Shown here one piece after another: positions 18,842 through 63,660 of a DNA stretch of 64,000 bases (positions are counted from its first letter, which is position 1; every line of letters starts with the position of its first letter). Position numbers and translations under genes: made by a program. Source of the stretch: Cloeon dipterum (taxonomy: Eukaryota > Arthropoda > Insecta > Ephemeroptera > Baetidae); assembly GCF_949628265.1 (NCBI RefSeq), contig NC_088787.1, positions 35,638,844 through 35,702,843 of the forward strand. The letters run 5' to 3'. The notes below the pieces were generated by a model. The model made no database searches and had not been told where the DNA came from. It saw only the letters and a list, made by a program, of their open reading frames with translations.

Positions 18842-18945
<104 letters not shown>

Positions 18946-24056: not shown

Positions 24057-24730
<674 letters not shown>

Positions 24731-37829: not shown

Positions 37830-37979
37830 GTCACTTATAGCCTCTTTTCCGTCACTTATAGCATCTGTTTACATATTTTTGTCACTTATAGCATCGTTTG
37901 TTTAGATGCTACAAGAAGCACAACAGATGCTATAAGTGACGAAAAAGATGCTATAAGTGACAAACTCTTGTAGCATCGG
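37830..37979. repeat. Symmetric iteron cluster (GATGCTATAAGTGAC)
   Basis: Three copies of GTCACTTATAGCATC (37830, one mismatch; 37851; 37881) face two exact inverse copies (37926; 37947), with weaker inverse and forward copies at 37905 and 37968. Copies 1-2 and 5-6 are both 21 bp apart, two helical turns. The centre of symmetry is near 37890-37910. This looks like a protein-binding array, such as a recombinase or origin site. Confidence 0.85.
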
Positions 37980-38161
37980 TCAAAATATAAACACGAGTCG
38001 TGTTTAGCGCGCAATTTCGAACTTTGTTAGGTTGGCACGTCAGCGGCGAGGGCGGAGCCAGTGTTTGGTTACGCCGACCGTTCACCGGCCGCCAAAACCG
38101 GTAAAATCGTGATTTTCAGTCCGCTTTGTGAAGTGAGCAGCGGCCATATTGGATTTGTCGC

Positions 38162-41100
38162 ATGTGCACTCCGCGTGGCTTGTTATCACAGACAACATAT
38201 TTCGCATATCCAACGAAAATTCCAAGAAAAGGTGCCACAATCGAAGACGAAATGGTTGAAATTCCTCCCACGTTCAACTGGGACCTTGTGGTGGGTGGAC
38301 TCCCTCCAGGTCGAGAGAAAAACGAGCGGAACCGGAGGAGGTGTGCCAATGAGCATCTTGAAGGCTTTGATAAGGTAATTGTGCTTTTATCAGTGCTAGT
38401 GTGTGTCAGCAGGTTAGGTTAATTATTTTTTTTTAATTTCAGGATCAAAAAGGTTGCTTCTCAGCCAGGCATGTTGGTGTCATTCCGGTGGCTTCCTTCA
38501 AATTGTAAGTTTATGGATGATGCAATCGCATGTATGGGGGACTCACACTTTCCGCTCACTCACACTTCTCGTTTTTTGATGGGAAGAATCAATGTAATGC
38601 CCTATCCTAGCGAGAAGTGTGAGTGTTGGGCGAAAAGGGTGAGTCCCCCATACTATTATGTTCAGATCGGAGTGTTTGTTTATTCATATGGGATTGTTAC
38701 TAATTTGCGATTCTTTCAGTGCATTGCCTGAGCATCAAGAAGGCTATCTTGAGACTAACAGCCGCTGCCGAGAAAGGCAGTGGCAATACCACATTCTTGA
38801 CCGGACTGAAAGAACAACACATGAAGGGCGGCTCTTGTTCGTGAGTCGTCGAAGTGTGGCCTTGTATGATGTTCCGCCCATCCCCGATAGCTTCATGCAA
38901 GCGGAATCTGACATCAGCACCACTTACGAGTAAGTATTTTAAAATATAATAAGTGTATGAAGCTCATAACATTGTCACACAGCATGGAAAGCCACATGAC
39001 CCTGCTTGGCATGGAAAACTGGCTATTGGACATGGACCGTAAGATGACAATGCCAAGGTGAGTAAAAACGATGTTGGTTTCTTAGCTCGGAATGTATGTA
39101 TGTCTGTGTTTACCCTGGCCCTGTTAACACATAGCTGTGTCTGAATTGAAGCGCCCAATTTTGCCCCAATTAATTCTTTTAAATTGACTCTTGCAGTTCA
39201 CGATCCAATTACCTTTCTATTCCGGATTGAGCAGCCCCAGTTGCCCCAAACTATTTTTAATAATTATTTTGAAAGCCAATTGTGCTATTTTATTGATCAC
39301 TTGTGCTCACTTTTTAATATCATTATTTTTTGCAAGGCGTTGCAAGCCATTTTGCCGCCGACCGTGCCCTCTCATGCAAGCCACCTGTGCTGAGGTACTT
39401 TGGCCGGAGTCAGGACGCAGCTGTCCGGAGGTGATGCACTCTGCTGTGTTGATGCACTCTGCTGTGTGTGCTAAAGTGCACCAGTGCACTCAACTAGTCT
39501 GTGGCACAGCATTAGCACCCTCCGGCTGGCTGCCCCTGCTCCCTGACCTCGGCACAGAGGCGAGGCATCAATTGTCAGGTTCTAATTACCTTCCCAATAC
39601 GGATTGAGCAGCCCCAGTTGCCCCAAACTATTTTTAATGATTATTTTGAAAGCCAATTGTGCTATTTTATTGATCACTTGTGCTCACTTTTTAATATCAT
39701 TATTTTTTGCAAGGCGTTGCAAGCCATTTTGCCGCCGACCGTGCCCTCTCATGCAAGCCACCTGTGCTGAGGTACTTTGGCTGGAGTCAGGACGCAGCTG
39801 TCCGGAGGTGATGCACTCTGCTCTGTTGATGCACTCTGCTGTGTGTGCTAAAGTGCACCAGTGCACTCAACTAGTCTGTGGCACAGCATTAGCACCCTCC
39901 GGCTGGCTGCCCCTGCTCCCCGACCTCGGCACAGAGGCGAGGCATCAATTGTCAGGATCTAATTACCTTCCCAATACGGATTGAGCAGCCCCAGTTGCCC
40001 CAAACTATTTTTAATGATTATTTTGAAAGCCAATTGTGCTATTTTATTGATCACTTGTGCTCACTTTTTAATATCATTATTTTTTGCAAGGCGTTGCAAG
40101 CCATTTTGCCGCCGACCGTGCCCTCTCATGCAAGCCACCTGTGCTGAGGTACTTTGGCTGGAGTCAGGACGCAGCTGTCCGGAGGTGATGCACTCTGCTG
40201 TGTTGATGCACTCTGCTGTGTGTGCTAAAGTGCACCAGTGCACTCAACTAGTCTGTGGCACAGCATTAGCACCCTCCGGCTGGCTGCCCCTGCTCCCTGA
40301 CCTCGGCACAGAGGCGAGGCATCAATTGTCAGGATCTAATTACCTTCCCAATACGGATTGAGCAGCCCCAGTTGCCCCAAACTATTTTTAATGATTATTT
40401 TGCCAGCCAATTGTGCTATTTTATTGATCACTTGTGCTCTCTTTTTAATATCATATATTTTTCAAGGCGTTGCAAGCTTTCTTGCCGCCGACCGTGCCCT
40501 CTCATGCGAGCCACCTGTGCTGAGGTACTGTGGCCGGAGTCAGGACGCAGCTGTCCGGAGGTGATGCACTCTGCTGTGTTGCTGCACTCTGCTGAGTGTG
40601 CCAAAGCGCAGCAGCACACTCAACTAGTGTGTGGCACAGCATTTGCACCCTCCGGCTGGCTGCCCCTGCTCCCAGACCTGGGCACAGAGGCGAGGCATCA
40701 ATTGTCAGGTTCTGATTACCTTCCCAACACGGATTGAGCACCCCAGTTGCCCCACACTATTTTTAATGATTATTTTGAAAGCCAATTGTGCTATTTTATT
40801 GATCACTTGTGCTCACTTTTTAATATCATTATTTTTTGCAAGGCGTTGCAAGCCATTTTGCCGCCGACCGTGCCCTCTCATGCAAGCCACCTGTGCTGAG
40901 GTACTTTGGCTGGAGTCAGGACGCAGCTGTCCGGAGGTGATGCACTCTGCTGTGTTGATGCACTCTGCTGTGTGTGCTAAAGTGCACCAGTGCACTCAAC
41001 TAGTGTGTGGCACAGCATTGGCACCCTCCGGCTGGCTGCCCCTGCTCCCTGACCTCGGCACAGAGGCGAGGCATCAATTGTCAGGATCTAATTACCTTCC

Positions 41101-44100
41101 CAATACGGATTGAGCAGCCCCAGTTGCCCCAAACTATTTTTAATGATTATTTTGAAAGCCAATTGTGCTATTTTATTGATCACTTGTGCTCACTTTTTAA
41201 TATCATTATTTTTTGCAAGGCGTTGCAAGCCATTTTGCCGCCGACCGTGCCCTCTCATGCAAGCCACCTGTGCTGAGGTACTTTGGCTGGAGTCAGGACG
41301 CAGCTGTCCGGAGGTGATGCACTCTGCTGTGTTGATGCACTCTGCTGTGTGTGCTAAAGTGCACCAGTGCACTCAACTAGTCTGTGGCACAGCATTAGCA
41401 CCCTCCGGCTGGCTGCCCCTGCTCCCTGACCTCGGCACAGAGGCGAGGCATCAATTGTCAGGATCTAATTACCTTCCCAATACGGATTGAGCAGCCCCAG
41501 TTGCCCCAAACTATTTTTAATGATTATTTTGAAAGCCAATTGTGCTATTTTATTGATCACTTGTGCTCACTTTTTAATATCATTATTTTTTGCAAGGCGT
41601 TGCAAGCCATTTTGCCGCCGACCGTGCCCTCTCATGCAAGCCACCTGTGCTGAGGTACTTTGGCCGGAGTCAGGACGCAGCTGTCCGGAGGTGATGCACT
41701 CTGCTGTGTTGATGCACTCTGCTGTGTGTGCTAAAGTGCACCAGTGCACTCAACTAGTCTGTGGCACAGCATTAGCACCCTCCGGCTGGCTGCCCCTGCT
41801 CCCTGACCTCGGCACAGAGGCGAGGCATCAATTGTCAGGTTCTAATTACCTTCCCAATACGGATTGAGCAGCCCCAGTTGCCCCAAACTATTTTTAATGA
41901 TTATTTTGAAAGCCAATTGTGCTATTTTATTGATCACTTGTGCTCACTTTTTAATATCATTATTTTTTGCAAGGCGTTGCAAGCCATTTTGCCGCCGACC
42001 GTGCCCTCTCATGCAAGCCACCTGTGCTGAGGTACTTTGGCTGGAGTCAGGACGCAGCTGTCCGGAGGTGATGCACTCTGCTGTGTTGATGCACTCTGCT
42101 GTGTGTGCTAAAGTGCACCAGTGCACTCAACTAGTCTGTGGCACAGCATTAGCACCCTCCGGCTGGCTGCCCCTGCTCCCTGACCTCGGCACAGAGGCGA
42201 GGCATCAATTGTCAGGATCTAATTACCTTCCCAATACGGATTGAGCAGCCCCAGTTGCCCCAAACTATTTTTAATGATTATTTTGCCAGCCAATTGTGCT
42301 ATTTTATTGATCACTTGTGCTCTCTTTTTAATATCATATATTTTTCAAGGCGTTGCAAGCTTTCTTGCCGCCGACCGTGCCCTCTCATGCGAGCCACCTG
42401 TGCTGAGGTACTGTGGCCGGAGTCAGGACGCAGCTGTCCGGAGGTGATGCACTCTGCTGTGTTGCTGCACTCTGCTGAGTGTGCCAAAGCGCAGCAGCAC
42501 ACTCAACTAGTGTGTGGCACAGCATTTGCACCCTCCGGCTGGCTGCCCCTGCTCCCAGACCTGGGCACAGAGGCGAGGCATCAATTGTCAGGTTCTGATT
42601 ACCTTCCCAACACGGATTGAGCACCCCAGTTGCCCCACACTATTTTTAATGATTATTTTGAAAGCCAATTGTGCTATTTTATTGATCACTTGTGCTCACT
42701 TTTTAATATCATTATTTTTTGCAAGGCGTTGCAAGCCATTTTGCCGCCGACCGTGCCCTCTCATGCAAGCCACCTGTGCTGAGGTACTTTGGCTGGAGTC
42801 AGGACGCAGCTGTCCGGAGGTGATGCACTCTGCTGTGTTGCTGCACTCTGCTGAGTGTGCCAAAGCGCAGCAGCACACTCAACTAGTGTGTGGCACAGCA
42901 TTTGCACCCTTTGGCTGGCTGCCCCTGCTCCCAGACCTGGGCACAGAGGCGAGGCATCAATTGTCAGGTTCTGATGACCATTCATTCCGGATTGATTATC
43001 TCCATTTGCCCCCAAATATTTTTTCCCATTTGTTTTTGCTTGCCAAAAATGCTCTTTTATTGTTCACTTGTTCACATTGCTGATGCTTGTACTGTTTTAT
43101 TGTGTTGTTTTTTAATTTACTGTTTAATTAATTTGATGATTACTTTTTAGAATTCTTGCCTGTATATACCTGGACTTGGCAAAGAAAGTGACACTTCTGG
43201 AAGGTGCGTCTGGGATGGCCCTGATGTCCTGTACGAACCCTGGACATGGCGCGGACAGAGCCACGTGGACGGCTAGCCTGGACTACCCGCTCTCACCAGA
43301 ACGCAACTTGTGCCTGGAGTCGACCGTTGGAGAGTGGTGCATGGTCCGCTTGGTTAAAGGTCGTCGGAAATTAGGTAGTAGAAGAGATAAGTTACTCCTT
43401 GACCTTTCTAATGTATTTCTTTTATCTGTACAGGCAAGCTTCTCGTCTCACGTCATGACAGTGGAACAGTGACGCTCATGGAAGGAGACGGTTGCGAGCT
43501 GAAGCACCGAGAGATGCTGCTGGCAATGAGAGGGCAACCGGTTGAGCTGGATTTTCAAGCGACGTTGGTGGCTTTCAAGCTCAAGGTTACCGGTACCATT
43601 GATGCCCTATCAGCTCTCAAGGACTATTTCGTCGGCGGTGGCCTTCAAACTGCACCACGTGGACTACCTCTTGTGAGTGGATACCAAAGTTATTTTTAAT
43701 TAATTAATTAATTGACTTGAATTAATTCAAGGTTTCGGACGACCACCTGGAGAGGCTTGCCAAAGGGGAAGGTTATTACAACGGACTGCTGAATTGTGAC
43801 CAGAGAAGGGCCGTGTACGAAATCCTCGAGCATGCCCGGCCACACACCATTTACTTGTTGGTGGGACCTCCTGGTACAGGAAAAACTGCCACCCTGGATG
43901 AGGTTGTGGTCCAGGTTGCCAGGCATCACCAAGAGAGAAGCGGACTCGATGCATTGTAGGTTGTAGGTTATATTGACGGCTGAATAATCATTTATGCTTT
44001 CCAGGGTATTTTTTGTGGTACCCACCAACGTGGCAGTCCGATCAACAACTGAGAGGCTGGTGCGTGCTGGGCTGGACGAGGACATGATCGTGCGTCTGCT

Positions 44101-45337
44101 CTCCGAGCAAGACTACCTGAGGAGGAATGATGCCCTAAGCGGAATGTCCCAGCGTGCCACGAGGATGATGTATCGGAGCACAACCAGTGTTGTAGTTGGC
44201 ACACCAATCTCAGTGGCCAGGATTTGCATGTCGCTCGGGGAGAGGAATCGACCGCCGCTCATGCTGCTGGTAAGGAAGAGTCGCTTCTCAATCGGATTGT
44301 TTTTTAATTATATTTTTGACAGCTCGACGAAGCAGGATATATGCCGGCTAGTGACGCGTTCGCAGCCATGACGTGTAACGGTGAGGCGGTGCAGACTGTA
44401 GCAGCAGGAGACCGCTTGCAGCTCAGACCCCGGTCATCCAGCAAAATCGCTGAGCTGCTAGATGGTCAATATAGTTTCTTCGACATGCTGGCGGACAGTG
44501 ACTACTTCCAGGATGACGGGTGAATTGCAATGCGAAAATTAATTACGTTAAATTATTGATTATTTTGTTTCAGTATCGTGCCGAAGGTGGGATTGGGTGT
44601 TTCGCTGACCGTGAACTATCGGGCGCACCCACGGTTGGTCAGAGGAGTGTCTGCACTTTTCTATCACGGATTGATGGTAAGCATGGTACGACGAAGATGT
44701 TTGGTTGCAATTACATTATTTTGTTTTCAGACTCCTGCTCGGGACTTGATCGTTGGAGACGAGACATTGCGTCTGCGGCACGAACTGAGAGAAGTAGGAC
44801 TGGACGTTGATGCCAACCCTCTCTACTGGGTGGACCATACAAGCCTGATGGAGCGCGACTTCCTGACGTCGTCGCTGTACAATGTTGGAGAAGCTGAAGT
44901 GGTTGTCCGACTCGTCGAGTTCCTCACCTCGGTCATCCCGCACAGACTCATCACGGTCCTATCACCGTACAGGAAGCAGGTATTTTGTGCAATAGACTTG
45001 CAAAAGGTAGGGTCTCTAAAAAACTGTTGTATTGTTCCAGGTGCTGCTGCTCAGGGAGATGCTGCCTCCCACCGTCCCTACGTACACAGTGGACGAGATT
45101 ATCGGACAAGAGCGTCCGGTAGTCATCGTCTCACTGGTACGTAGCGACCTAAGTGATACCGGAGTGCAGTCACACGGCCTTGGATTCTTGAGGGAGCCGA
45201 ACCGTGTTAATGTGATGGTGTCTAGGGCGAAGGAGCTGGCCATCCTCGTTGGATCAAGAGCCCATTTCGCCAAGAGCAGAGTCAGCTTTTGGGAGACTTT
45301 GACGACCAGGGCAACTGGAATCCAACCTGATTTTTGA
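38162..45337 (+). CDS. SF1 RNA/DNA helicase, UPF1/MOV10-like
   Basis: Twelve exons (38162-38374, 38443-38504, 38720-38929, 38983-39057, 43151-43359, 43434-43672, 43732-43955, 44005-44269, 44323-44519, 44574-44676, 44731-44979, 45041-45337) join in phase to 780 residues. Superfamily-1 motifs appear in order: Walker A GPPGTGKT (about residue 382), Ia VVPTNVAV, Walker B LDEAG (about 501), III GDRLQLRP, IV NYRAHPR, V VDEIIGQERP, VI EPNRVNVMVSRAKE. The DEAG box and overall order fit MOV10/Armitage-type helicases. The start could also be 38252 (MVEIPP). Intron 4 holds the 4-kb satellite array. Within a mobile element it may act in replication, or against RNA silencing (both inference). Poly(A) signal near 45418. 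Confidence 0.88.
38532..38653. repeat. 43-bp-arm inverted repeat in helicase intron 2
   Basis: Arms starting GTATGGGGGACTCACACTTT and ending GGTGAGTCCCCCATAC flank a loop of about 37 bp, with inner arms CACACTTCTCG / CGAGAAGTGTG. Could be a tiny MITE or a structured intron hairpin. Confidence 0.75.
39218..42993 (+). repeat. Tandem array of ten ~377-bp units, left
   Basis: Units start at about 39227, 39604, 39981, 40358, 40735, 41111, 41487, 41864, 42241 and 42618. Each opens after CGGATTGAGCA with CCCCAGTTGCCCCA and ends TACCTTCCCAATACGGATTG. Most are nearly identical; units 4-5 and 9-10 are a distinct variant pair repeated 1,883 bp apart, implying a five-unit higher-order duplication. The array lies in helicase intron 4. 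Long frames that recur in each unit are artefacts of a unit length with few stops. Confidence 0.95.
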
Positions 45338-45681
45338 TTTCGCGTTTGGACAGTCCGTTGTGTGTTTGTTGTGATTTTTTAATGTCGTTTTCAACTCTGA
45401 CCATTTGATTTACTTTTTAATAAATTAACGATTTGTACTAGATTAAAAGACGTGAAATATTTTTATTTGCTCTTGCTGTCTACCATTCAATTTTAGATCG
45501 GACGGGTTTGAACAACTAATTTTGTTGGATATTTTATCAGAATTTTGAGTGAAGCAGGCATATGCAAATGACATTTCCCTCTGGATTGGCCAAATTGCTA
45601 AGAAAACTTGGACTATGTAAAGGAAACATGATCTTCTTGAATGTCATCCAGCTAATTTATTAATCAATTTTTTAAACAAAT

Positions 45682-46470
45682 TCAATCAATCGTCTTTTTG
45701 GTACGTCCTCTTGTCACCTTTGGCTGCAAGTGCTCCTCACTGAAAGAACAATGTTGGTGGCTTGAAACCATTCTCCTAAAAGCTCTTAAAATTGTAAATT
45801 TGGGCGAGTGGTTTATTAATTTTGATTCTTTGTAGGCGCCTGATTTTGAAAATAAGCTGGATGCAAATGGAACCTGTTTGATGATATACCTTTCCATTTT
45901 GGGACGCCCACGCTTCTTGGTCGCCACTTTGTTTTGGATGGGGGCCGCAGCTGGAGAGGCGATTTCCCTGGAGCTGTATTTTATAGTGAGTGTTGCAAAA
46001 AGGAGATTCAGATAACACTTACTTTAGTTGGCTGGCATCCACGGCGTTGCTCTCCGTAATAGGCCTCTCATCTCCGTCTTGCGAATTTGTCTCTGCACTG
46101 TCCGACTGTGCCGTCCTGATAAGAGTTGCAATTAATTACTAACATCGCACTACTCACATTCCGGACTGTTACTTGTCATTAGGCGCGCGCTGATCTTTTT
46201 GCTTTGGTTCCTTTGCTTTGGTGGCCTTGCCAGGTGGACGGCCTCTGCCTCGTTTTACGGGGTTTTTATCCGCGCAGACCTCTGCCACTGCTGCATCTTT
46301 GCCGGTTCTGTCAGCAGTCCGGAATTTTTTTTAGTTTTGCAAGAGTTGGCAGTGGTAAGAAATTACCCTAATTCGTTGGCAACCGCACTGGGCCTGTAAT
46401 CACTGTGTTCTGAATCTGTCTCTGCACTGTCCGACTGTGCAGTCCTGGTAGAGATGTAAAAAAATATTAA
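45682..46470 (-). CDS. AT-hook exon cluster downstream of the recombinase gene
   Basis: On the minus strand three or four exon-like stretches with acceptors and donors encode two copies of an acidic TAQSDSAET segment (near 46410-46445 and 46070-46115), each followed by an AT-hook: KRGRGRPPGK near 46220-46250 and TKKRGRPKM near 45890-45925. The frame near 45682 ends the last one. They repeat the layout of the recombinase's own last exon (KKRGRPPGSK, 46545-46575). They may be alternative 3' exons of the recombinase gene or a small separate gene; I cannot tell which. Confidence 0.5.
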
Positions 46471-46496
46471 TCCCGCGCTTCAAATAATCTGGAATA

Positions 46497-49400
46497 TTAC
46501 TTTTTCTTCAGCTTGCGGCTAGGCGTTTGAGTCGCTCCTTTCACTCGGTTCTTGCTGCCCGGCGGGCGGCCTCGTTTTTTTGGCTTCGCCTGCGCAGATA
46601 GCTCGGCCTCCACTTCTTCCTCATCGGCATCCTCCAGGAGAATCGCATCTTGGAGATCCTCAATTGTGAAGCTGAAGCAAAAAGGATTAAACTTCAATGC
46701 ATAGTACAAATTGAACACGGAATGAGATTTTTGACCAAATCCTTGCAGGCACTAAAAGAATAAATGGGATCGCGCTATACTCACTCATCCTCTTGCACAG
46801 CATTTGGCGCATTTGCATCGGTTGTCCTGATCTGTGCAGCCTCTTCCAAGGTGGTTCCCTTGTGTTTTTTGATATCACCCGTCTGGAAAATCTCGAGGGC
46901 TCGACCAACCATCAGATTGAAGCCGAGGCCCGTAGGAAGATCATAGTAGTTATCATGTACCTTCTGGCTGTGGCCCATCAGTAAGCATAGGAGCTTCTTT
47001 GCTGGCCCGCTGAGCTGCATGTGCCCAACCTAAACTTGGTCATATAAGAATCAAAATTCATAAACAATTGGCATTGACTGGAAGTACCGTTGTCGCAAAC
47101 GAAGTTCTGATGGCACGAGCCCTCAGGCTTGTTGGTTTGGCGGCAAGGCACAATTTTGCCGCTTTTTCCTGCACCCTTCTTGTATCCATCGGACGTCCGT
47201 TACAAGTACCGAATAGGTATGCACAATTTTCAGGAATCCCTGCAGCAGCGCGCACTGCTTTGTCGGCCAGCGTGCAGAAATAGTCGCGCCACTCCGGTTT
47301 GATGAGCGACAACACTTTTGAGGACCCTTTCCCAGTTGATGTGATGACGTCATAACGCTCAGCCAGTTCTTGCTGTGCCTTTGAGAGGGCTTCACTGTTC
47401 TGTCCGGAGTAATTATTCCTCTGCGCGTAGTCCTCGAGGGTAATAAAACTTCCCTCGGTTGCCCTCCGAGCGTTGAAGGAGCAGAATGCCAAATTTAAGT
47501 GTGAGGCCAAAGTCCTGTAGTGCAATTCAATCTCGGAAGGATCTTTCGCCGCGAGCAGTTTTATGTGGTGAAAATCACACATCCCCTCTAGGTGATTGTT
47601 ATACAGCATCAGGTCGTCCGGAGATACGTGAGTCTTGTGCAGCTTCTCATTGCTCTTTTTCTGCTTTGCAGCCCTCGTTGTGGTGTACATACGGAACCTC
47701 TTCGTTCCCAAGTACTCGATCAGTAGGCGACACTCTTCAACCCACACCGTCCGATCTTTATCTTCCTCAAACCGCTCCTGCTGCAACTCACTTGCAACCT
47801 GGCGGACAAGCGAGCTGAGTGTCATGACATCGTTTGGCCTGTGGAAGTCAGTCTTGTTTTCGCCGCCCCCGCAAATCATGTGGATGACCTCGAGAATTCG
47901 GTCAGTCTTGCTCGCAGGCCTGTTGCTGGGCAATCCCTGCCACACAGACCGCTTACAGATATCCCGGAGAGAGTTGACTAATCCTGGAATTTCGGGATGC
48001 TCCTTGAAACCTGTGTAAAGTGCGTGCAGGAGCCGGATATTCCGCCGGCTGATTTGGACACCGTTATTTCCAGTTTCTTGCTGAAGGCCGAAATTTTTGA
48101 CCACTCGAATGACCAATGCATCATCTGTGACGATAAAACTGGCGATTCTCTTATCCCTCATGTTCATCAGGATTTTATCCACTGCCGAAGTATAGCTTGG
48201 GTCCAAATTAGCCCGTAGTTTCTCGATCCGGTTGATATTGTGGATGTCCACAGCTGGCTCAGGCACCTTTTCCTCTTCCTCTCTCCTTACCCTGCAGGCC
48301 TGCAAGTGTCTGCGAAAGTTCCTGCTGGTGTGGAGTGTACTGCAGTAGGGGCACAGGTTGGTTTTGTGCACGGTGCCCGATTGTGTCCGGCGTGCTGGTA
48401 CAAGGGTGCCCTGCTTGTATTGCATAACAGCAGCATTGTGCTGCCCGTTTCCGAGAAGCACCAACTCTTTGAAGAACACCTTCAGCTGCTCCTTGTTGGG
48501 ATTCTCTGCAAACTTGTCTTTGATTAAGGGCTCATTCCGGTGGAACTCCCTGAGATGGCGCCAAATATTTCCCCCATAGTTTTTGCCGCAAAAGTAGCAA
48601 TACTGCTTCTTCTTCACTCCGGAGGCGAGCGCTAACAGCTTGATTGGCGTACTTTTCATTTTTTTGTAAGGAGACAATTGCAGGCATGAACCTCCCATCG
48701 CGTGGAACTTCCTCGAACCAGCTGCAATCGGACGGTCGGAAGTGTAAGAGAAAACTCTGACCTATAATTGGAATTTGCCTACCTGGTTTCCAGAAATTTT
48801 CATACACTTTTCTTGTATGCTTCTTGAGCAGGTTGGAGAAGATGTTGAATGCGCGCCACTCCGTTCTCTCATGCACACCAATGATGTAGACTTCTTTCTC
48901 TTCAGGATCAATGTTGAGGGTTGTAAAGACGGAATGGAGGAAACGGGCACCAGTCGGAACGCTCTGTGATAACAACTGCTCCGCGGCAACGAGTTGGTTC
49001 ATAAGGGTGTACAGCGTCTCTGTTGTGATGTATAGCTGACCTGAAACCATGCAAATTTGACGCCCATTGCGTTGTTGTTGCTTGCAATACTTACTGTACA
49101 CGATTTCAGCCTTGAGGAGAACCTTGCAATCGCCACTCTTGTCCAGAGTCAGCTGCTTCAGCTCGGCAAGTGTCTGCAGCCGTGGTGACTGACTGTCAGG
49201 GATGAGGAAGAAGTCAGGCAAGTTTTCCTTCCTTGACATTGAGTAATACGTGACCTTGATTAAATGGACCTTGTTGTGAGGCACTGAAATGCAGGAAAAT
49301 CGCGTGTGAAGATTAGTGTTAGGGGGATTGTTTTGTCGGGATGCTGAATTAGTTGCATAATTCACAATATTCTGCAACATTTTTAAAAATAAGATGAAAT

Positions 49401-51359: not shown

Positions 51360-52421
51360 ATGGATGGGCCAAAGAGGACAAAGATAAATGACGAGTGCGT
51401 GTGCTGCCATTGCCGCAACAAGATTAGGCTTCCCTTGGTGTGTATTTGTGCATGAATTATCTGCGCCATGGTGCTAAACTGCCTTAATTGTTTGACCTTC
51501 CAGAAGTTCCAAGCTGTCCCAAGCGATCTTTGGACCGCGTTTATTCAAGCAAAACGGAATGAACTGGCGGCCCAACTCGAAGTGCGCCAGCTCGAAACTT
51601 GGGTACAGCACGCCTCGCTCCAACAGAAGGACGAGGGTGATTTGGAACTGGATGCACTGCGTGATGAAAGTATGAAAAATATATCTAGCAGCCGGTTGTG
51701 ATTTTAAAGATTTACGATTATTAATTTGCAGAGCAACACGAGCAGGATTTCTATCTCTCGCAACTCGAGTTCAAAAACCCCGAGGACATCAGCAATGACG
51801 GAAGAAAGGTATATGGTTTTCTGTCTCCATCTTGCGACTGGTTTACTCACACAATCATGATTCTGTGATTCAGGCCGCGTTTTTTATAGTACGTGTATTA
51901 CTTTTGTTAGATTCACCACACGGAATGGACAGAATTGTTCAAAATTTTAAATCAAAAATTTAAACTCTGCATCACGTGTAGCAATTACCAATAACAATGC
52001 TAATATCTCTTTGCAAATTCTCAAGCTCATCTAATACGCGTTGCTTGCAGGTGATGTTTTACAAAAGTCCCAACGGCTACGCAATCTTGGACAAGGCCTT
52101 TGTAGATCAGATTTCCAAAGACGCGAAGACAGCAAAAGAATTGTTTGAGGAGCTCCTTCTGCGTCATTTCACACACGAGGCGCTCCTCAATGGAAGTCTG
52201 GATGGAGGCTGTGGGTTCCATCGACTGAATCCTCCGATGATTGATGCCATTTTCGGTGAGCATGATTAAGATTTGTGTGTTTTTCAATCCGGATAGCTAA
52301 TTACAAAATCTTTGCAGACATCATTCATGACGTCCATTCCAGAAGTGAGACCACAAGCCGCAACGCTTTCAAGGAGAGCCTGCGAAGGATGAGGGAGAGG
52401 ATCAGGGCAGAAGAGGCTTAA
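51360..52421 (+). CDS. BEN-like domain protein 1 with N-terminal Cys motif
   Basis: Five exons (51360-51437, 51504-51669, 51732-51808, 52051-52255, 52318-52421) join in phase to 209 residues. The N-terminus has a CVCCHC cluster that may bind zinc; the middle is polar and helical; the C-terminal half has the BEN-like pattern LFEELLLRHFTHEALLNGS, then a Leu-Asn-Pro-Pro segment and AIFDIIHDV. BEN domains bind DNA in animal repressors and occur in DNA viruses and transposons (known). The start at 51360 gives the only frame that joins to exon 2 in phase. Confidence 0.65.
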
Positions 52422-53213: not shown

Positions 53214-54792
53214 ATGCAACAAGAAGCAGATCCAAGTGATGGGACTGAGAGCGGGGTCGTCTTCGACGTGAATGCACCAGAGCTGCAGCCGCTGGACCTG
53301 GACCACATTCTCAAGAATGCGTCAAGTGAGTTGTAATTTTCAATATATTTTTAATTCTTCGGTAATGTTCCTCTTTCTGGTTTACTTGTGCATGCGTGAG
53401 TGTTCCCCTGTTATCAGGGTTCATCAGAAACCCTCATTTATCCTCTAGAACCGACGACTTGCGAGAATTTGGAAAGCACTTTAATAGTCTTTTTTGCTTT
53501 CTGCCTCAGTTGCCGCTCCGGTTTGTGCAATTACCGAGGTGGAGTGCGAACAAGAATCAGAATCCGGAAGTGAGGATGTCGCAGACATGCAATTCTATTT
53601 CTATTAAACCTTTCATCTTTATCATGTAATACGCTTTCCTTGCAGATGACAGCGGAACGCCGTCTGATTCTTCAACCTCCAACCGGACTGAGAGTGAAGA
53701 AGAAGAGGAACCACCTCACGAACCACCTTCCAAGCGGCGAAAGTTTTCAGAAAGCGAATCGGAGGCGGATGACGAAGACCTGGCTGAAAGAGTGGCTGGT
53801 AAGCTGAAGGTTGAATTATTTTTAAATTGGCAGCTTCCTAAAACTCATACACCATGTTCAGCACTGAAAAAGGAGAGAGCAACATTGGTAGTGGCCAAGA
53901 TTGAACTGAAGCAGCAGGTCAATTTCCTAGAAGAGAAGAGGGCACGCCTCATGGAGGAAAATCAGTCATTGAGGGAGGAAGCCCAGGTTCAAGAACGGAA
54001 GGTGGAACTGCTGAAGAAAGCAAGGAGAGATTTCAAAAACCAAAACCTTGATAGTGTGCGCTCGCTGCAAAAAGCCGTTGTTGAACCTGGAACCAGGCGT
54101 TATGCGGCGGCAGTGTACTTGTAATAATCTTATTCTACCTTCATATAGTTACTTCATGAATTTTGTCGCAGGGACAGCAAGGATAATATTGAACAACAGA
54201 TTTCCAAAGATGGGTGGCGAGCCGTCCTCTTGAACGACCCCGATCTCCCTCAAAAGGTTAGTCATTCCGTGAGCGCAAAAAGCAGTAATTTAAATTCCAT
54301 TCATTTCCAGATGAAATCTGGCGCAAGATCCAGTGACAATCTCATTGCCATTGCGGACGGTGAGCTCAACGAGTGCTACGAGGAAAGTAAAGGCTCCTTC
54401 ATCTCCTGCTTGAGGCACGTCGCAATCTCCATTTTCCGCGTGGAACGCCTACTGTACTTCAGTTACGGCGGTACGAAGAGGACCGGACGGCGGGAGGCCA
54501 CTTTGTCCCTCCCACAGCCCCTGAAGGAGGCCTTCTTTGGTAATAATTTTCAGTTCGGAGTGTTTCTTTGTCTTACATAACCCTTTGCTTCCCAGACATT
54601 GCCACACAAATTGCCAGGATGGAACGGTACACGTGGTTCGAGAGGTCGAAAGGAGCCAGCTCATCAGTTTCAGATGTGAAACGTAGCGCAAAACGTGCCC
54701 TGGCTGACCTCATTACGGAGCGACGCCCAAAATCCAAGACAGATAAAGACGGAAGGAGCTCCACAGAATCGATTGATTCAGAAGATGATTAA
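53214..54792 (+). CDS. BEN-like domain protein 2 with coiled coil
   Basis: Seven exons (53214-53325, 53510-53569, 53646-53798, 53862-54120, 54172-54256, 54311-54539, 54596-54792) join in phase to 364 residues. An acidic N-terminus with a basic SKRRKF patch (possible nuclear signal) is followed by a coiled coil of about 60 residues rich in Glu, Lys and Leu, a QISKDGWRAVLL segment, and a C-terminal domain with SFISCLRHVAISIFRVERLL, an LSLPQPLKEAFFDIATQI stretch and a basic-acidic tail. It is closely related to the next gene in every part, and to gene 1 in the C-terminal domain. Probably a DNA-binding dimer; function inferred. Confidence 0.75.
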
Positions 54793-55917
54793 TTCAGCCG
54801 CCCAAATTCGGATTGGCAATTATTTTCGTTTACTTAAATTTGATACTTTGAACTAATCATTAATCTTAATTTAAATAAAATGGTAAGTACCCTTCATCTC
54901 TCATATTTTTTCTGCGTTTCATTACCTCCGATGAAAAGTGAACCATTACATTATCACAAGATTATGGCACCCTTCACTGATTAAAATTTATTTAACACAA
55001 CTTAAAGTTCCATACAGGCAGAATTTCATAGTGGATTCGTTGATATCTTCACTCCGGTTTAATTTTAGATTCCACATCGCAAGGTGAAGCGCAAGGTACA
55101 GCTGAATTTGACTGAAAATTGCAGGCAAATCGTTTGAAAATGGTTGAAAAATGGTTTGAAAAATTTCAGCAGTACTTCATAAAGCCTCCCAGCCCAGCCC
55201 CCACGCTATTCATGCTAACTCCTTTCTGAAGCCTCCTTGCGAAATCGTCACTACCGCAGCTAGCTAGGCTTTGGCGGCAATACTGCACTTCCACTGCACC
55301 AGAGAGCCGCTGGAGACCATAAAAACCTGTAATTGTTCCCCAATCTCCAGTTCATTTTCCAGTGTCACGTTTGAAATCGGAATGTAAGAACGCATTAATG
55401 TTAATTTTTTTGGGGGGGAATTATGCCCACCACATTTTCCATATTATTTGATTCCATCGCCACCGATTGATAATCGAATGTGTTTCTTTCAAGATTGCAT
55501 GATATCGCATGTAAATCAATGTAGCCAAATGCAGGAAATTCAGTGGACACTCTAAATTATAATACGGATGGCATTTTTATTTCCGTTTTGACACTCGTAC
55601 ATTAAATTTGAATGCGATAATCACGGAGCCCATGTATGTATGTATGTATGTATTTATGTGTTTGTATGAATGTGTTTATGCATTTTTCACGTGCAATTAA
55701 GTAATAACATGCATTACTGTGCATATGAAAGTACATAAGTACATACATTATGCATTTTTTTGGCAATTTCGCATTCAAATTTATGTGAAAATGTGTGCAT
55801 GTAAGGATGTGAACATGCATGCAATTTTGCATGAAAAAATGGTGAACTGGATATTTACATAATATTGATATTTTCCAAGCCAGTTATAATTGTTTGTGCA
55901 TTAATTTTCAGTCAAAA
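54793..55917. other. Intergenic between BEN-like genes 2 and 3
   Basis: No gene supported. Contains a TGCAC-rich patch near 55265-55310 and a (TATG)n run near 55634-55655. AT-rich elsewhere. Confidence 0.6.
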
Positions 55918-57345
55918 ATGGAAAGAGAGCCAGTTCAGGACCAGGCTGCGTCCGAAAAAGACCAGTTTGTCATTGCCGCAAGTAAGTTGAATATTACTTG
56001 GTTTTAAGTTGAAATTCGTCCAATTGTTATTTAATTTGTCACTCCGGTCGCATGTATTATCTCTGTTCTCATTTGGCCAACAGATGAGCTTCTGGAGCCC
56101 AATTATTTCGAGGTGGTAATTGACCAAGGTGACGTTGCAGGTGATGGCACGATGGAAGGTGGTCAAGGTACTTGTATTATTATTAATTTAAATATGCATC
56201 TCAAGGGTTTGGTTTAGGTGCAGTCGATTGCGCAGATCCGTTGGATGATCCCAACCCCGATGCTGCTGCCCTGCAAGACTTTGATCCGTTCATCGACTCA
56301 CCGCCATCGGAATGCCGCAACAGTCCAGTCCTCGCGCCCGCGAAAATTGATGACTCTCGCAAATGGGCTTGTAAGTTACTTGCATTTGATTTAATTCAAA
56401 GGCGGCAATTCAATATTCATATATTTTTTCCAGCTCTTGAAATAAAGATTGCAGACAATGAAATTCAACGCATTGTCATCCAGAAGAAGATTGCGGATCT
56501 CGAACAACGGATTGAGGTGCTCAAGAAGGAAAATGAGGCTTCAAAGAAGATTGTAGCATCAGCATCAAGCGCCAATTCGACAACACCTAGCGCGAGTCAG
56601 GTCGTGTCGGTGCACTCGCTGGAGAGTGCGATTGCGAAACAAGTGGCCCTAGTCGAGGACCCATACATGTGAGTAGTAAAAAATAACTTGCTAAACGGTT
56701 AATTCTAATCGTTGTCCTAGGCTGAACATGTTGCGCATCGAGCAGCGGGTGACTAATGAGGGTTGGGAGAACGTGCTGCTGGTGAATCCAAACGTCCGTG
56801 TAAATGTGTGATACACCGGGAATTAATTTATTGCACGTATCACTTCTGATTTTTGTTACAGACCCAATCCGGAGTGAAGGCCGGCAGTATTGCGATCACT
56901 GATGACGACCTGGAACTTTGCTTCAAGGACGGAAGGCAATCATTCTTCTCGTGCCTGCGCCGCGTTACTCTCACCATCTTCCGAATGGAAGTTATGAAGT
57001 ACTACAGCTTGCAAGGCACCAAAGGGACAGCGAAACGCAAACCCACCATGCACCTGCCAGACAGCTGCTTGTTGCAGTTCACTGGTACAATCTTGTTGTT
57101 CTTTCCGATGTTCCTCTTATTCCACATACATTTTTCCAGAGCTGGCCTACCAGATTGCCATCCGTATGAAGGGCAAGTGGCGCAATTCCAAGAAAGCCAA
57201 TGCCAACGTCATCGACACTGATGTCGTTGCCAGGAGGGTCCTCTCAAACATGCTCTGCGAGCGACGGCCAACTTACCAGCAGGAGGGTGATGCCAACAAC
57301 GTAAGTTCATCCGAAGACGCCGCTCTGGCTGATTCCGTTTTGTAA
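55918..57345 (+). CDS. BEN-like domain protein 3 with coiled coil
   Basis: Seven exons (55918-55981, 56084-56167, 56218-56370, 56434-56668, 56721-56799, 56862-57084, 57140-57345) join in phase to 347 residues. Acidic N-terminus; coiled coil (IADLEQRIEVLKKENEASKK, about residues 115-145); RVTNEGWENVLL, matching the QISKDGWRAVLL of protein 2; and a C-terminal domain with SFFSCLRRVTLTIFRMEVMK, a Leu-Pro segment and ELAYQIAIRM. The last exon reads through a possible GTAAGT donor at 57301. A tandem paralogue of the preceding gene. Likely DNA-binding, partner unknown. Confidence 0.75.
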
Positions 57346-57639
57346 GCCAATCGGATGGAAAGTAATACGAACAGTTGTTTCTTTTGTAAGATATTCAAAT
57401 AAAGTCCAAAAAATTTGTCACATTCATAGAACATTTCATTGACATCCATTGTTTTAATTGTAAAAATATTTAAATTAAACAGGAATGCCATAATGTAAAA
57501 TTCATTCCGTTCTGCCTAACTTGGTGCAAGAGCTGTTGACCAGAATCAAAGTGAATGTCCTCCAACCTCGATTTCCATTCTCTCAGCACTTTTACTCCAC
57601 TAAAAGCCAAAATTTTGCAAAATCTGGTGCGGGTTCTGT

Positions 57640-58730
57640 GCAGTACCTTGCCAATCCGATGCCAAACATGTGCAGATCTAGTGCCATTTGACTGCCAGAT
57701 TTCACTGCGGGTCTTGTGCGGACGCGATAAAAATCGAGATTGGTGCGATTTAAGTGCAAATGCGATGCAGAACAAGTGCAGAAACAATGCCAATGCAGTG
57801 CAAGAATCTGACAACGAGACCAGAATCAGGCAACCAGTAAGCATATGGAAAGACACTCGATTTATTTTCTCCGGAGTGATAGCCTTGCACCGCAAAAGCA
57901 TTGATTCTGGCACTCAAAAGGCACATGATCTGCACCCGTTTGGCAACGAAATGGCACCAGTTCTGCACAGAACCATTGCAAAGTCATGTTCCTGCACTGG
58001 ATAAGCCGTGATTCTGGCACTCATATGGCACAGCATGTGCACCCGTTTTGCATTGAACTGGCACCTGTTCTGCACAAAACATGCACAATGGCCATGGTGC
58101 CATGTTGCGGAAAATTGTCCATCGGCCACTTTTGCTTCGGGGGGTTTAGCCACGCTGCTTCTCACAGGGAAGCAGCGTTTTCACTCGGATCACGTGACTG
58201 AAGAGGCCGATGGACAGGGCGATTTTGAAGTGTAGACCACCAGAAAATTTTCCACGGCACGCGGCAATTTCCCTTGTGCAGGAATTGTCCAATACTGGTA
58301 CCAATCCGATGCCAAACATGTGCAGATCAAGTGCCATTTGACTGCCAGATTTTACTGCAGGTGATGTGCGGACGCGATTAAAATCGAGATTGGTGCGAGT
58401 AAAGTGCAAATGCGATGCAGAACAAGTGCAGAAACAATGCCAATGCAGTGCAAGAATCTGACAACGAGACCAGAATCAGGCAACCAGTAAGCATATGGAA
58501 AGACACTCGATTTATTTTCTCCGGAGTGACAGCCTTGCACCGCTTAAGCATTGATTCTGGCACTCAAATGGCACATGAATTGCACCCGTTTGGCATCGAA
58601 ATGGCACCAGTTCTGCACAGAACCATTGCAAAGTCATGTTCCTGCACTGGATAAGCCGTGATTCTGGCACTCAAATGGCACAGCATGTGCACCAGTTTTG
58701 CACTGCACTGGCACCTGTTCTGCACAAATT
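57640..58730 (+). repeat. Two direct ~400-bp TGCAC-rich repeats, 650 bp apart, upstream of the methyltransferase
   Basis: The segment from GCCAAACATGTGCAGATC (57661) recurs at 58311 and matches for about 400 bp, ending in GTTCCTGCACTGGATAAGCC. Both copies are packed with TGCAC, GTGCA and TGGCAC words every 15-30 bp. They fill the space just before the methyltransferase start and may be its control region, or a satellite seed. Confidence 0.85.
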
Positions 58731-58781
58731 ACGCACAAAACAATCATTCGCGGTGCTCTGTTGATCGCTTTTATTTCTACC

Positions 58782-61593
58782 ATGAGGCCGATCGGTTCTT
58801 TTGCCCGATTTGGGAAAAACTTCTGTAAGATAGTGAGCGCAGAAGAAGACCTGGCATTCAAATGTCCAGATATATACCACGTCACAGTGCTGGAGTTAGT
58901 ATTTTTTCATTAATCATTCCGATATCTAAAACAGTGTGTCTCCTCACAGACGCATACAAGAGACGCTAATCCAAAGCGGAGCGAGAAATGAGTTGGTGCA
59001 ACTCAAAGGTTGCAACTACGTCCAAGGTACAGCACTCGGTGATTCAATTATTGTTTTTCCATCCGCGGAAGAGGCTTCTGAAGGTGACTCATTCTTCTGC
59101 AGACTCTTGTAAGTTTATTTCACTTCGAGATAGTTCCAGCTCATTCAAGGTAACATACACTCTCATTCAGTTTTGATGGCTCCTCTTACACACCAACGAT
59201 GGTATTCAACGACGAGAAGAACTGGTGCCATTGCAAAGTAACATCTAACAAACGAAGGCAGCTAGCACGCACAATAACTGATGCATCGAATGGCACCACT
59301 ACTGTAAGTTACATTTTTCGTTTCTTTTCGCGGCAACAACTTTCACAATCGTATATATTGTCCTAGGTCCGGATTGGCTCGTCCGTGGTGATTGAGAAAG
59401 ATACATGCTTGGCCACGACATTCAAATCGGAGCGTTTGCCCCACGTGCCAGGGCAAAAATTGCTCCGCATTGTCCGCGTCGACAAAATCAGCGTCCCCAA
59501 AGGCTCTCAATCAGAATCAGAAAAAGTGCTCGCTGCGTCAAAGATTCGATTTGCAGTCACCTGTTTCGTCAGAGCTGCTGAGACAAACAGTTGTTCTATG
59601 GAAACACCTACAAATCTGCTGCACTTGTCTTCTTACCGTGATATATCATTTACCAAACCTTCCGCCTTTTTAAAAAACATTTCCTTTACAGAAACCGAGA
59701 TTTCTGGTGCACTCTTTGTCTCAGTGGTGAACGTGTTATTTCTTCCTACCCTAGAAGTTAAGTACATTGATGACGTTGACCAATACGGAATGGCGACATA
59801 CGTCTGCAATGGAATGCTCGACTTGCAAAACCAAAAAGTTGTATTCAAAAGTTGCATACGCCTGATTTCGTGGTAAAAATATGTTCTGTTCTCAGCTTTC
59901 GAAGATTGGTAGCGCCATTTCGTCACTCAAGAGTGTTCCTCCTGCTATCCAAAGGAAGCCACTCCGATGTCTTGATCTCTTTGCAGGATGCGGTGGATTG
60001 ACCCTCGGATTGGAAATGAGCAAACTGACTTCCAGCCTGTGGGCACTTGACTCAGATCCTATCGCATGCAAAACTTTTGCGGAGAATTTCCAACATGCCA
60101 CAGTTTTCCAAGCAACTGCAACAGATTGGTTAAAGGAGCTGAGAAGTGTAAGTCTTTTTTTGATTCCTAGCAAGAACAATTTCAAATTTCTATATCCTAT
60201 TAAGGGCCAACTGCTATCAAAGAAGGGTCAAAGACTGCCGCAACGCGGCGATGTAGAAATGATCGTAGGTGGCCCTCCGTGTCAGGGATTTTCACACCTA
60301 AATCGATTCAAGACAAGCAGCAAAGCTGCGAAGAACGTAGTTACTTTAATTGCTTTCAGATCGTGTTCTATTTTGAGTTTCGTGTTTTTTCAGAAATCCC
60401 AGGTTCCAGCATTTCTAGACATCGTCGCTTTCTACAAACCAGAATGCTTTTTAATGGAAAACGTCAAGTCATTCATTACAGAGGAAGGTGGAAAGCACTT
60501 CTTTGGGGCGCTGCAGACAACAAAAGAAATGGGGTACTATTTCCGATTCATGGTCTTGCAGGCTGCCGATTTTGGCGCACCACAACAGCGGCCAAGGTTG
60601 TTATACACTCATTCCGTCTTACGCCCTCTAACAAAAGTGCTCTTCTACTAGGTTTTTCCTATTTGGCACGCTTGACATCGGACGGTTGGCTGGTAAACCC
60701 ATTGCCACCCATTTCTCTGGGCTCACGATGACTAGTGTCAAAGCTGGCAATCATACTCTGGTTGGGAGCTAAACGACTCATGCTCCCCACCATAACCGAA
60801 ATTAACACTTATTTCCTTTTTCAGTCATTCGAGGACAAACAGGAGGCGTATTTTCAGAAGGTTTCTGTGTTCCACGCCATCGGGGATTTGCCAGATGTTG
60901 AGACACTTGAAAGCAGCAACAAGAGCTGCTACAATGCAATCACCTCTACTTTCCAATCGAAGGTGATGAAACAAATTAACATTTTTCGTTCCGCATTGAT
61001 TTCTTTGTTATCAGATGAGAGTCGGCAGTGAAAAATTGCGTATGCATAAACTGCCCACGTCCATCAGTCCAGAGGACAAGAAGAGGATGACGATGATTCC
61101 CCAGGGTTCAGATTGGCGATGCCTACCTCGGTACGAGGATGAAGAGCGCTTCAAAGCGTGAGTGTTACCTTTTCCTAATCACTCTTTAAAATGTATATTA
61201 TTCTACTTTTCCCCCCTTTCATTAGCGGAATGCCACTCGCTCCAAAGTCATTGGTAAAATCAGCACACTCAAATGGTGATTGGCGCGGAGCATACGGAAG
61301 GCTGCAGTGGTCGGATCTATTCATGACAGTTTTAACGAGGCCATGCATTGCTTCTAAGACTGGAAAAATCATTCATCCTATGTACCATCGAACGCTGAGC
61401 CTCCGAGAGTATGCCAGAGCCCAGACCTTTCCAGACAGATTTAAATTTAAAGGGGCATTGACTCAAGTACAGAAGCAGGTTGGCTACCATCAAAATTCCA
61501 TTCCGTTATTCTTTACCAATGGTGTTCTTGCAGATTGGAAACGCAGTACCTCCCCTGCTTGCAGAAGCAATCGGACGGTCACTCTTAATCTAA
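58782..61593 (+). CDS. DNMT1-type cytosine-5 DNA methyltransferase with BAH region
   Basis: First exons 58782-58894, 58950-59108, 59171-59303 and one from 59367 join in phase; borders around 59.6-59.9 kb are uncertain. About 700 residues. The N-terminal part holds BAH-like segments (VRIGSSVVIEK, LLRIVRVDKI, FAVTCFVRAAETN). The catalytic domain has LDLFAGCGGLTLGLE (SAM), GQRLPQRGDVEMIVGGPPCQGF with catalytic Cys, MENVKSF, QRPRFFLFG, YGRLQWSDLF and IGNAVPP in family order. The KGQRLPQ.GDVEM wording before PPCQGF is typical of DNMT1, not DNMT3. The targeting (RFTS) and CXXC modules of host DNMT1 are not seen, so it is a short form. It may be a captured host gene that keeps the element or its host methylated (inference). 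Confidence 0.85.
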
Positions 61594-61764
61594 ATAAACT
61601 TGTGCTCCCTCAATTCAGATCAAAATCTATTATAGCCACAATTAATTCAACTTCTCATAATTTGGTCTCTAGTTGTAACTATTAAAACGTGTTCCATTCC
61701 GGTTTGATTAATAAAACAATTACCGTCAAATAAAGTGTGTTTATTCCTTGTCTATCACTCTATA

Positions 61765-63660
61765 CATTAAAATAATGAAAGCAGTGCTCCCAGGCAGTCA
61801 GACACGCCTGCCAGCTGTTGCCTCCACTGTGGGCCCCACGTTCGCCAGGTTCCAACACTGCAGAATGCACCACCACTGGCTGGACAGCGCCTCCACTCCG
61901 GCCACAGCTTCCTAGCACAGGCGTCCCGCATGACAGGGCAAGTTAGGCGGCAAACTCCCTTTAAACGCCTTGAAAGCAAAATTAGATTTACAAGTGTGCA
62001 CAAGTGATCAATAAAATAGCACTATTGGCGGGGAAAATAAACGATTAAAAATATTTTGGGGCAACTGGGGGCTCACAATCCGGAATGAATGGTCATTTGA
62101 GGCTGACAATTGTCGCCTCGCCTCCTTGCCAACGTCGGGAAACCGGGGCAGCCAGCCGGGGGGTGCAATTGAGTGCCAATGCTGTGCCACACACTAGTTG
62201 AGTGTACTGGTGCGCTTTAGCACACACAGCAGAGTGCAGCAACACAGCAGAGTGCATCACCTCCGGACAGCTGCGTCCTGACTCCGGCCAAAGTACCTCA
62301 GCACAGGTGGCTCGCATGAGAGGGCACGGTCGGCGGCAAAAAAGCTTGCAACGCCTTTAAAAAATTATGATATTAAAAAGTGAGCACAAGTGATCAATAA
62401 AATAGCACAATTGGCTGGCAAAATAATTATTAAAAATAGTGTGGGGCAACTGGGGGTGCTCAATCCGTATTGGGAAGGTAATCAGAACCTGACAATTGAT
62501 GCCTCGCCTCTGTGCCAAGGTCTGGGAGCAGGGGCAGCCAGCCAAAGGGTGCCAATGCTGTGCCACACACTATGCTGGTGCGCTTTAGCACACACAGCAG
62601 AGTGCAGCAACACAGCAGAGTGCATCACCTCCGGACAGCTGCGTCCTGACTCCGGCCAAAGTACCTCAGCACAGGTGGCTCGCATGAGAGGGCACGGTCG
62701 GCGGCAAAAAAGCTTGCAACGCCTTGAAAAATATATGATATTAAAAAGTGAGCACAAGTGATCAATAAAATAGCACAATTGGCTGGGAAAATAATTATTA
62801 AAAATAGTTTGGGGCAACTGGGGGCTCTCAATCCGGATTAGAAAGGTAATTAGAACCTGACAATTGATGCCTCGCCTCTGTGCCAAGGTCTGGGAGCAGG
62901 GGCAGCCAGCCGGGGGGTGCAATTGAGTGCCAATGCTGTGCCACACACTAGTTGAGTGTACTGGTGCGCTTTAGCACACACAGCAGAGTGCGCGCTTGCT
63001 GCGCGCACTGCATCAACACTGCAGACAGCACCACCTCCGGACAGACTGCGTCCTAACTCCGGCCAATGTTCCTCAGCACAGGCGGCTCGCATGAGAGGGC
63101 ACGGTCGGCGGCAAAAAAGCTTGCAACGCCTTGAAAAAATAATAAGATTTAAAAGTGTGCACAAGTGATCAATAAAATAGCACTATTGGCGGGGAAAACA
63201 AATGAGTAAAAATATTTTGGGGCAACTGGGGGCTCACAATCCGGAATAGAAGGTAATTGGAACCTGACAATTGTTGCCTCGCCTCCGTGCCAAGGTCCGG
63301 GAGCTGGGGCTGCCAGCCGGGGAGATGCCACTGACTGCTTTTGCTGTTCCAAACACAAGCTGAATTTTCTGGTGCGCTTCAGCACGCAGCAGAGTGCGCG
63401 CTTGCTGCGCGCACTGCTTCAACACTGCACAAGCACCACCGCCGGACAGACAGCGTCCAAACTCCGGACACAGCTGCTCAGCACAGGCGGCTCGCATGAC
63501 AGGGCACGATCGGCGGCAAAATAGCTTGCAACGCCTGGAAAAGAAAATGAGATTTACAAGTGTGCACAAGTGATCAATAAAATACTACTTTTGGCGGGGT
63601 AAAATTGCGAATAAATAATTGTGGCACAATTAGCCGATACACTCCGAAGTGGAAGAGTGA
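61765..63660 (-). repeat. Tandem array of the same repeat in inverse orientation, right
   Basis: About five units read inversely (boundaries near 62085, 62465, 62833, 63240 and 63645). Shared blocks with the left array include TTGATCACTTGTGC, TGCAAGCTTTTTTGCCGCCGA and GGCGAGGCATCAATTGTCAG. These units are more diverged from one another than the left ones; the outermost and innermost are the most decayed. They start just after the methyltransferase gene. Confidence 0.9.

Follow-up and report, generated by a model that had tools for sequence, protein, structure and literature searches.

Cryptons are tyrosine-recombinase DNA transposons of animals, insects included, and a circular intermediate has been proposed for them. 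In the part of their description available here (PMC3212892), animal Cryptons have neither a C-terminal domain nor terminal repeats, those of fungi and stramenopiles have direct repeats of 4–6 bp, and neither 'helicase' nor 'methyltransferase' appears as a word. Starships are giant fungal elements, typically of about 100 kb, in which further genes, a host-adaptive cargo, follow a tyrosine recombinase; this captain is the first gene and carries DUF3435 (PMC11623301, in excerpt). Captured cytosine methyltransferases are known from the retrotransposons SymbioLINE-Dnmt and SymbioDIRS-Dnmt3 of dinoflagellates and charophytes, the DIRS elements carrying Dnmt3; CpG loss was examined there as a sign of self-methylation and was found in one group, the LINEs (PMC5890265). 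Here, an element named W is described from a window of 64,000 nucleotides, the whole stretch analyzed, of the insect Cloeon dipterum (Ephemeroptera; assembly GCF_949628265.1, 190 Mb in 10 contigs). The window is C2:35638844–35702843, where C2 is NC_088787.1 and C1 to C5 are contig labels. The original prediction, made from the letters of the window, had seen in it a possible undescribed giant tyrosine-recombinase transposon with a DNMT1-type methyltransferase, and sister copies, shared ends and empty sites now support this view.

W and a second family of the same genome, E, are best read as large tyrosine-recombinase DNA transposons that form a new group, in which a DNMT1-like enzyme would methylate the element. 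Like Cryptons (CryptonA and CryptonI), they are animal DNA transposons that appear to be moved by a recombinase; unlike Cryptons, they have several genes, six in W, a length of 24.7–28.4 kb (six measured copies, W and five E), inverted arrays, facing 15-bp motifs at the tips and a 2-bp AG. Pfam gave no match to the Crypton domain DUF3504 when the main exon was scanned to E ≤ 10 and the spliced W protein and the E exon to E ≤ 1. With Starships they share the giant size and the further genes carried along with the recombinase. In contrast to Starships, they have an insect host and a fixed set of genes, with the helicase gene first and an inward-pointing recombinase gene second; DUF3435 had no Pfam match in the W recombinase or the E exon. 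A cytosine methyltransferase is also borne by SymbioLINE-Dnmt and SymbioDIRS-Dnmt3, whereas here the gene is DNMT1-like and sits in an insect DNA transposon without a reverse-transcriptase match. W and E are therefore filed among the tyrosine-recombinase DNA transposons as new, set apart from Cryptons and Starships by the descriptions of those groups. No description of such an element was recognized by title or abstract in the literature searched, which was covered in part and without preprints, and the word Crypton is absent from the available part of a review of giant transposons (PMC6431247).

Copies, ends and insertion sites

With the recombinase as query, 40 stretches of the genome matched, all 40 candidates being scored. 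Besides W, five copies are full-length and free of stops, two of them on C1 and one each on C2, C3 and C5. These define family E, with 75% recombinase identity to W. Aligned over 4,614 bp, the five E loci have 3 variable columns, and a full-length comparison of E1 (27,561 bp) with E2 (28,355 bp) revealed 11 mismatches and one gap over 17,433 bp (four blocks outside the arrays and mid repeats). All five copies agree in every base of the left 114 bp; over the right 116 bp, four are identical and one has 99% identity. The copies thus have exact ends in common, while their flanks differ. The E family has spread recently in this genome.

The predicted extent of W, 37830–63660, was corrected by alignment with the five E copies, which assigned the left end to 37816 and the right end to 64208. 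Further left ends of the W type were found at C2:36508821 (98%), C5:1164791 (88%) and C2:37094737 (91%), and further right ends at C5:1174722 (97%) and C2:36438137 (95%); C5:24140205 has a shorter match of 87%. Copies at other loci with shared ends, by which mobility was to be recognized, are thus present as five E copies and as W-family ends at 88–98% identity. The W-type ends paired on C5 lie about 10 kb apart and enclose matches to the helicase and the methyltransferase, but none of the 40 recombinase stretches; this unit is likely a deletion derivative. Broken recombinase, helicase and methyltransferase matches mostly cluster at C2:36.16–37.10 Mb and C5:1.05–1.20 Mb, as if old copies accumulated in these two stretches.

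AG starts the left tip and closes the right tip in all six elements. Empty sites, also asked for by the original prediction, were found within this genome for E5 and W, the two of the six elements that were compared. E5 is inserted into an array of an 80–81-bp satellite (C5:31808288–31809787, stretch L029, the left flank of E5). Its 1,500-bp left flank comprises 18 satellite units; over 20 bp, 10 of these are identical and the others differ by at most 3 mismatches. Since the satellite units run uninterrupted as (A/T)AGAGAAACCC, the empty site has one AG and the filled site two. The flanks of W fused with one AG match a paralogous stretch to the right of the window (L025, from about 4481) with 89.8% identity; this match takes in 7 left-flank bases, the AG and the right flank (TCGGTGCAGGAAAATTATT). 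A second paralogue of the W flanks begins at the same base (82%), and farther out the first paralogue matches the left flank of W with 81% (in line) and the right flank with 92%. The W empty site is good but less clean than that of E5, because about 120 bp of its left flank are unaligned. Insertion thus takes place at AG, which is single in the empty site and double in the filled site.

These ends and empty sites reveal movement as a unit with exact ends and without a long target duplication, and the W and E elements are almost certainly mobile units. A fixed host gene cluster with unrelated repeats, which would agree with the introns and intact frames of the genes, is refuted by the dispersed copies with exact shared ends and by the empty sites, and its probability is practically nil. 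The outcome named beforehand as refuting a transposon, a single fixed copy with its genes found apart, is contradicted by the same dispersed copies.

The tips carry a 15-bp motif, GTCACTTATAGCATC, which on the left starts at base 15 of the element. When as many as 3 mismatches are allowed, it occurs 6 times in W and 7 times each in E1 and E2, always at the tips, as compared to a mean of 0.9 matches in shuffled W (20 shuffles). The sixth copy in W is inverted and ends 18 bp from the right end, beyond the window. We read the motif as a candidate recombinase site, in which two facing arms would flank an AG crossover after joining of the tips. In this model, the recombinase would bind the motifs facing each other at both tips, join the tips at AG and release a circle, which would then insert at another AG; such a circle intermediate is fairly probable. 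The helicase may serve copying of the element, because the five near-identical copies imply a gain of copies.

Gene set and recombinase class

The dense gene block of the original prediction was recovered as a GC-rich stretch from about 37.8 kb with six genes that splice into single stop-free frames (Table 1). From this position, GC content climbs to 41–51% in 2-kb windows as compared to 34–41% before; one window before the block, composed of simple repeat, has 47%. The genes contain 43 introns in all, every one GT-AG (exon ends were picked by eye, and frame and splice signals were checked). Introns are 48–113 bp long, except for those of 215 and 4,093 bp in the helicase gene, 242 bp in BEN1 and 184 bp in BEN2.

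Table 1. Features of element W; positions are those of the window.
Feature	Position	Strand	Description
Whole element W	37816..64208	+	26,393 bp; last 208 bp beyond the window; from five E copies and empty site
Left-tip cluster of the 15-bp motif	37830..37961		three direct and two inverted copies
SF1 (UPF1-like) helicase	38252..45337	+	12 exons, 755 amino acids; Pfam AAA_11 and AAA_12
Left tandem array	39198..43023		10.2 copies of 377 bp, within helicase intron 4 (4,093 bp)
Putative zinc-finger tyrosine recombinase	46497..49239	-	at least 5 exons, 818 amino acids; further exons possible on either side
BEN1	51360..52421	+	209 amino acids; C-terminal BEN-like domain
BEN2	53214..54792	+	364 amino acids; coiled coil and C-terminal domain not matching BEN
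BEN3	55918..57345	+	347 amino acids; BEN2 paralogue
DNMT1-like cytosine methyltransferase	58782..61593	+	13 exons, 705 amino acids; complete catalytic domain
Right tandem array	61895..63605		4.4 copies of about 368 bp, in opposite orientation to the left array

The original prediction was confirmed in part. The helicase carries its two Pfam domains with Walker motifs, as in UPF1-like SF1 helicases. The methyltransferase matches PF00145 (E = 4e-54, profile positions 2–322 of 324), and its top PDB matches are DNMT1 (E = 2e-69), as befits a DNMT1-type catalytic domain; the PDB matches listed span residues 284 onward only. RFTS, CXXC and BAH gave no Pfam match at E ≤ 1 in the 705-residue model, from which an upstream exon may be missing; BAH domains had been suspected by eye and were dropped after the Pfam result, which showed no domain besides the catalytic one. 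Of the three predicted BEN-like proteins, one keeps the label, and weakly: BEN1 matches PF10523 with E = 0.0026 and 18.4 bits, below the cut-off of 23.2, and has no PDB match at E ≤ 1. BEN2 and BEN3, mutual paralogues with 30% identity, have no BEN match in Pfam at E ≤ 1. The inverted arrays of one repeat were confirmed, with inverted pairs 90–96% complementary (25 longest of 166 pairs), but they do not bracket the block as predicted, the left array lying inside a helicase intron.

For the zinc-finger recombinase, the family evidence is weak and correctly placed. Its frame has two C2H2-like fingers, recognized by eye, and the splice between FATT and VGHMQ is borne out by E1, in which the gene runs through the same place without an intron. 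The XerC model matches the C-terminal domain (E = 0.004; W domain alone, E = 0.0098), and the catalytic pattern R..K..(H/R)xxR..H..Y is present in W and E. In hhalign, a profile of W and E matched an alignment of five known recombinases with P = 0.0015, with TGKGS, RAIR, GHS and Y in register; singly, XerC (0.0031) and XerD (0.049) came top of 12. In PHROGs, the E domain had a single weak match, to an integrase (E = 0.1), and W had none; a PDB profile search with both recombinases (E ≤ 10) returned zinc fingers and unrelated chains and no recombinases.

Several results speak against this class. An arginine stands in place of the first catalytic histidine, none of the recombinase models in Pfam matches, and NCBIfam gave no match to the E domain on its own. 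In hhalign, the scores of Cre (0.15), Lambda Int (0.49) and FimB (0.74) were no better than those of seven unrelated controls (0.20–0.85), and a HMMER profile of the five recombinases ranked BEN1 (E = 0.06) above the recombinase (0.3–0.5). A single-sequence AlphaFold model had a mean predicted local distance difference test score (pLDDT) of 35.8 and was not usable. These weak scores and contrary comparisons would fit a zinc-finger protein that is no tyrosine recombinase, with the element moved by another, unrecognized enzyme. This is unlikely: the XerC match is correctly placed, the catalytic motifs are kept in W and E, the insertions lack a long target duplication, and a Pfam scan of gene pieces and spliced proteins matched no transposase or reverse transcriptase. 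Since ends, target and conservation agree with a recombinase, the protein is very probably a tyrosine recombinase. As a whole, a large insect DNA transposon moved by its own zinc-finger tyrosine recombinase is the favoured explanation, and is held with good confidence.

BEN domains and inverted terminal repeats are found in some insect viruses and poxviruses. Together with the size, the several genes and the inverted arrays near both ends, this could point to an integrated large DNA virus or a virus-derived element in place of a transposon. However, no polymerase, capsid or packaging gene is among the six genes, the ends are exact at AG, and the recombinase is without a relative in viral contigs, where a close search found 3 stretches that fit a pattern, none of them confirmed. 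A viral origin is thus very improbable. In the protein database, the recombinase had no match at E ≤ 0.001 among 7,991 candidates scored.

The transposon reading is accompanied by a conserved gene order. W and E1 have in common, in order and orientation, the helicase gene (with an array in the same intron), the recombinase, BEN1, BEN2 and methyltransferase genes and the inverted array; no separate counterpart of BEN3 was found in E1. A blastn comparison at E ≤ 1e-3 with word size 7 gave no match between the W arrays (377 bp) and those of E1 (337 bp). Array position and inversion are kept between W and E1, whereas array sequence is not. In a third family, F, the recombinase is 36–40% identical. 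Its five loci (C2 at 36.19, 36.41 and 36.86 Mb, C4 at 6.64 Mb and C5 at 1.14 Mb) include three without stops in the recombinase match, one with two stops and one partial match with two stops. Helicase, methyltransferase and recombinase occur together at all five, in an order that differs from W and E and is common among F; no BEN2 match lies near these loci among the 26 matches listed. Each of the 82 helicase matches listed (59 of 129 candidates scored) belongs to a locus of W, E or F or falls within the C2 and C5 stretches that are rich in elements.

Codon pairs of W and E1 were taken from tblastn alignments, BEN3 being compared with the BEN2 gene of E1. Non-synonymous and synonymous divergence (dN and dS) were 0.187 and 1.64 for the recombinase (817 of 818 codons) and 0.223 and 1.17 for the methyltransferase (702 of 705 codons). 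The ratio of non-synonymous to synonymous difference proportions (pN/pS) was 0.40–0.65 in the remaining genes, with synonymous sites close to saturation. The recombinase is under purifying selection. Since dN is also below dS for the methyltransferase, purifying selection acts on it as a part of the element. Per exon, the W methyltransferase is 52–77% identical to that of E and 35–61% identical to the unlinked loci C1:5543547 and C2:6904444; therefore, it is not a recent capture of the genes at these two loci.

Besides the arrays, both families carry a further repeat block of another kind. In W, GCAC-rich repeats spaced 650 bp lie directly before the methyltransferase gene (57651–58730); in E1, tandem repeats of 172–173 bp occupy the same place (element positions 17942–19504). 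Helicase intron 2 of W holds an inverted repeat at 38527–38653 that resembles a hairpin and a miniature inverted-repeat transposable element, with arms around GGGGGACTCACAC...GTGAGTCCCCC (by eye).

CpG composition and the methyltransferase

The observed/expected ratio of CpG is 0.76 in W, 0.76 in E1 and 0.75 in E2, as compared to 0.97–1.14 in six host flanks, and falls to 0.45–0.65 in the four arrays measured. TpG + CpA is raised to 1.29–1.33 in the elements and 1.43–1.60 in the arrays (flanks, 1.01–1.07), and is 1.24 (W) and 1.19 (E1) when the arrays are left out. GpC shows no comparable loss in the elements. Of the 1.5-kb windows examined, 3 of 118 from the host, 6 of the 17 from W and 9 of the 18 from E1 combine CpG below 0.8 with TpG + CpA above 1.2. 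When the comparison is limited to the 20 GC-rich host windows, the difference in CpG has P = 5e-7 (W) and P = 2e-5 (E1), with neighbouring windows not independent. Such a footprint would be left if CpG were methylated in the element and not in the host DNA examined. By itself, it points to no particular enzyme or host.

The footprint and the constraint on the methyltransferase lend indirect support to the predicted self-methylation, which is still inferred. Replication and DNA packing, which the original prediction placed with it in one possible programme, are inferences as well. The DNMT1-like enzyme would methylate CpG of the element, most of all in the inverted arrays; judged from composition, that it does so is given an even chance. 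To the points raised against the recombinase has to be added that CpG loss is mild outside the arrays (0.83 in W, 0.90 in E1). The footprint could instead stem from a former, methylating host, left by horizontal transfer, or from enzymes of the present host acting on foreign DNA, with the element methyltransferase otherwise employed. A GC content of 46–51% in the elements, unlike the 37–40% of the host flanks, would suit this reading, as would further methyltransferase matches outside the element loci (C1:5543547, C2:6904444 and C3:34442396). It is opposed by a methyltransferase that is constrained along with the element and stands beside the recombinase in family F too, and by host flanks that, repeats included, are without the footprint (3 of 118 windows). 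Overall, such a foreign or host-made footprint is possible, at somewhat below even chances.

If the enzyme does methylate its own element, methylation would likeliest mark element DNA or establish a repressed or protected chromatin state of the element's own making, with the BEN-like proteins perhaps bound to the arrays. Taken further, W and E may represent a new superfamily of giant animal DNA transposons with a recombinase-helicase-methyltransferase core that methylates its own arrays as a private epigenetic system, within a host whose examined DNA lacks this footprint, the arrays being its own chromatin or replication centre, kept despite complete sequence turnover. This extended proposal is tentative and falls just short of an even chance.

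Surroundings of W and meaning of the family

Genes of the MRJP type, a mark of an insect host, adjoin the insertion (window 30099–30845 and 34830–35759), and the flanks of W have their paralogues to the right of the window (L025 and L026). Left of W, an inverted repeat of 1.9 kb with 90% identity (window 3356–5223 and 24612–26483) adjoins GTGTGCGC/CACACACA tandem tracts and is probably an unrelated mobile element. To the right of the window lies another inverted repeat of 2.55 kb with 99.8% identity (L027:3854–6403 and L028:1635–4185).

Starships are known from fungi and methyltransferase-bearing transposons from the retrotransposons of dinoflagellates and charophytes; the insect DNA transposon described here combines both. 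Its near-identical copies make it testable how large elements gain copies and why transposons keep a methyltransferase. A third testable question is whether, in a genome with little sign of CpG methylation of its own, the epigenetic state of a selfish element is set by that element. With two families whose arrays are alike in position and inversion and not in sequence, the role of the arrays becomes testable as well.

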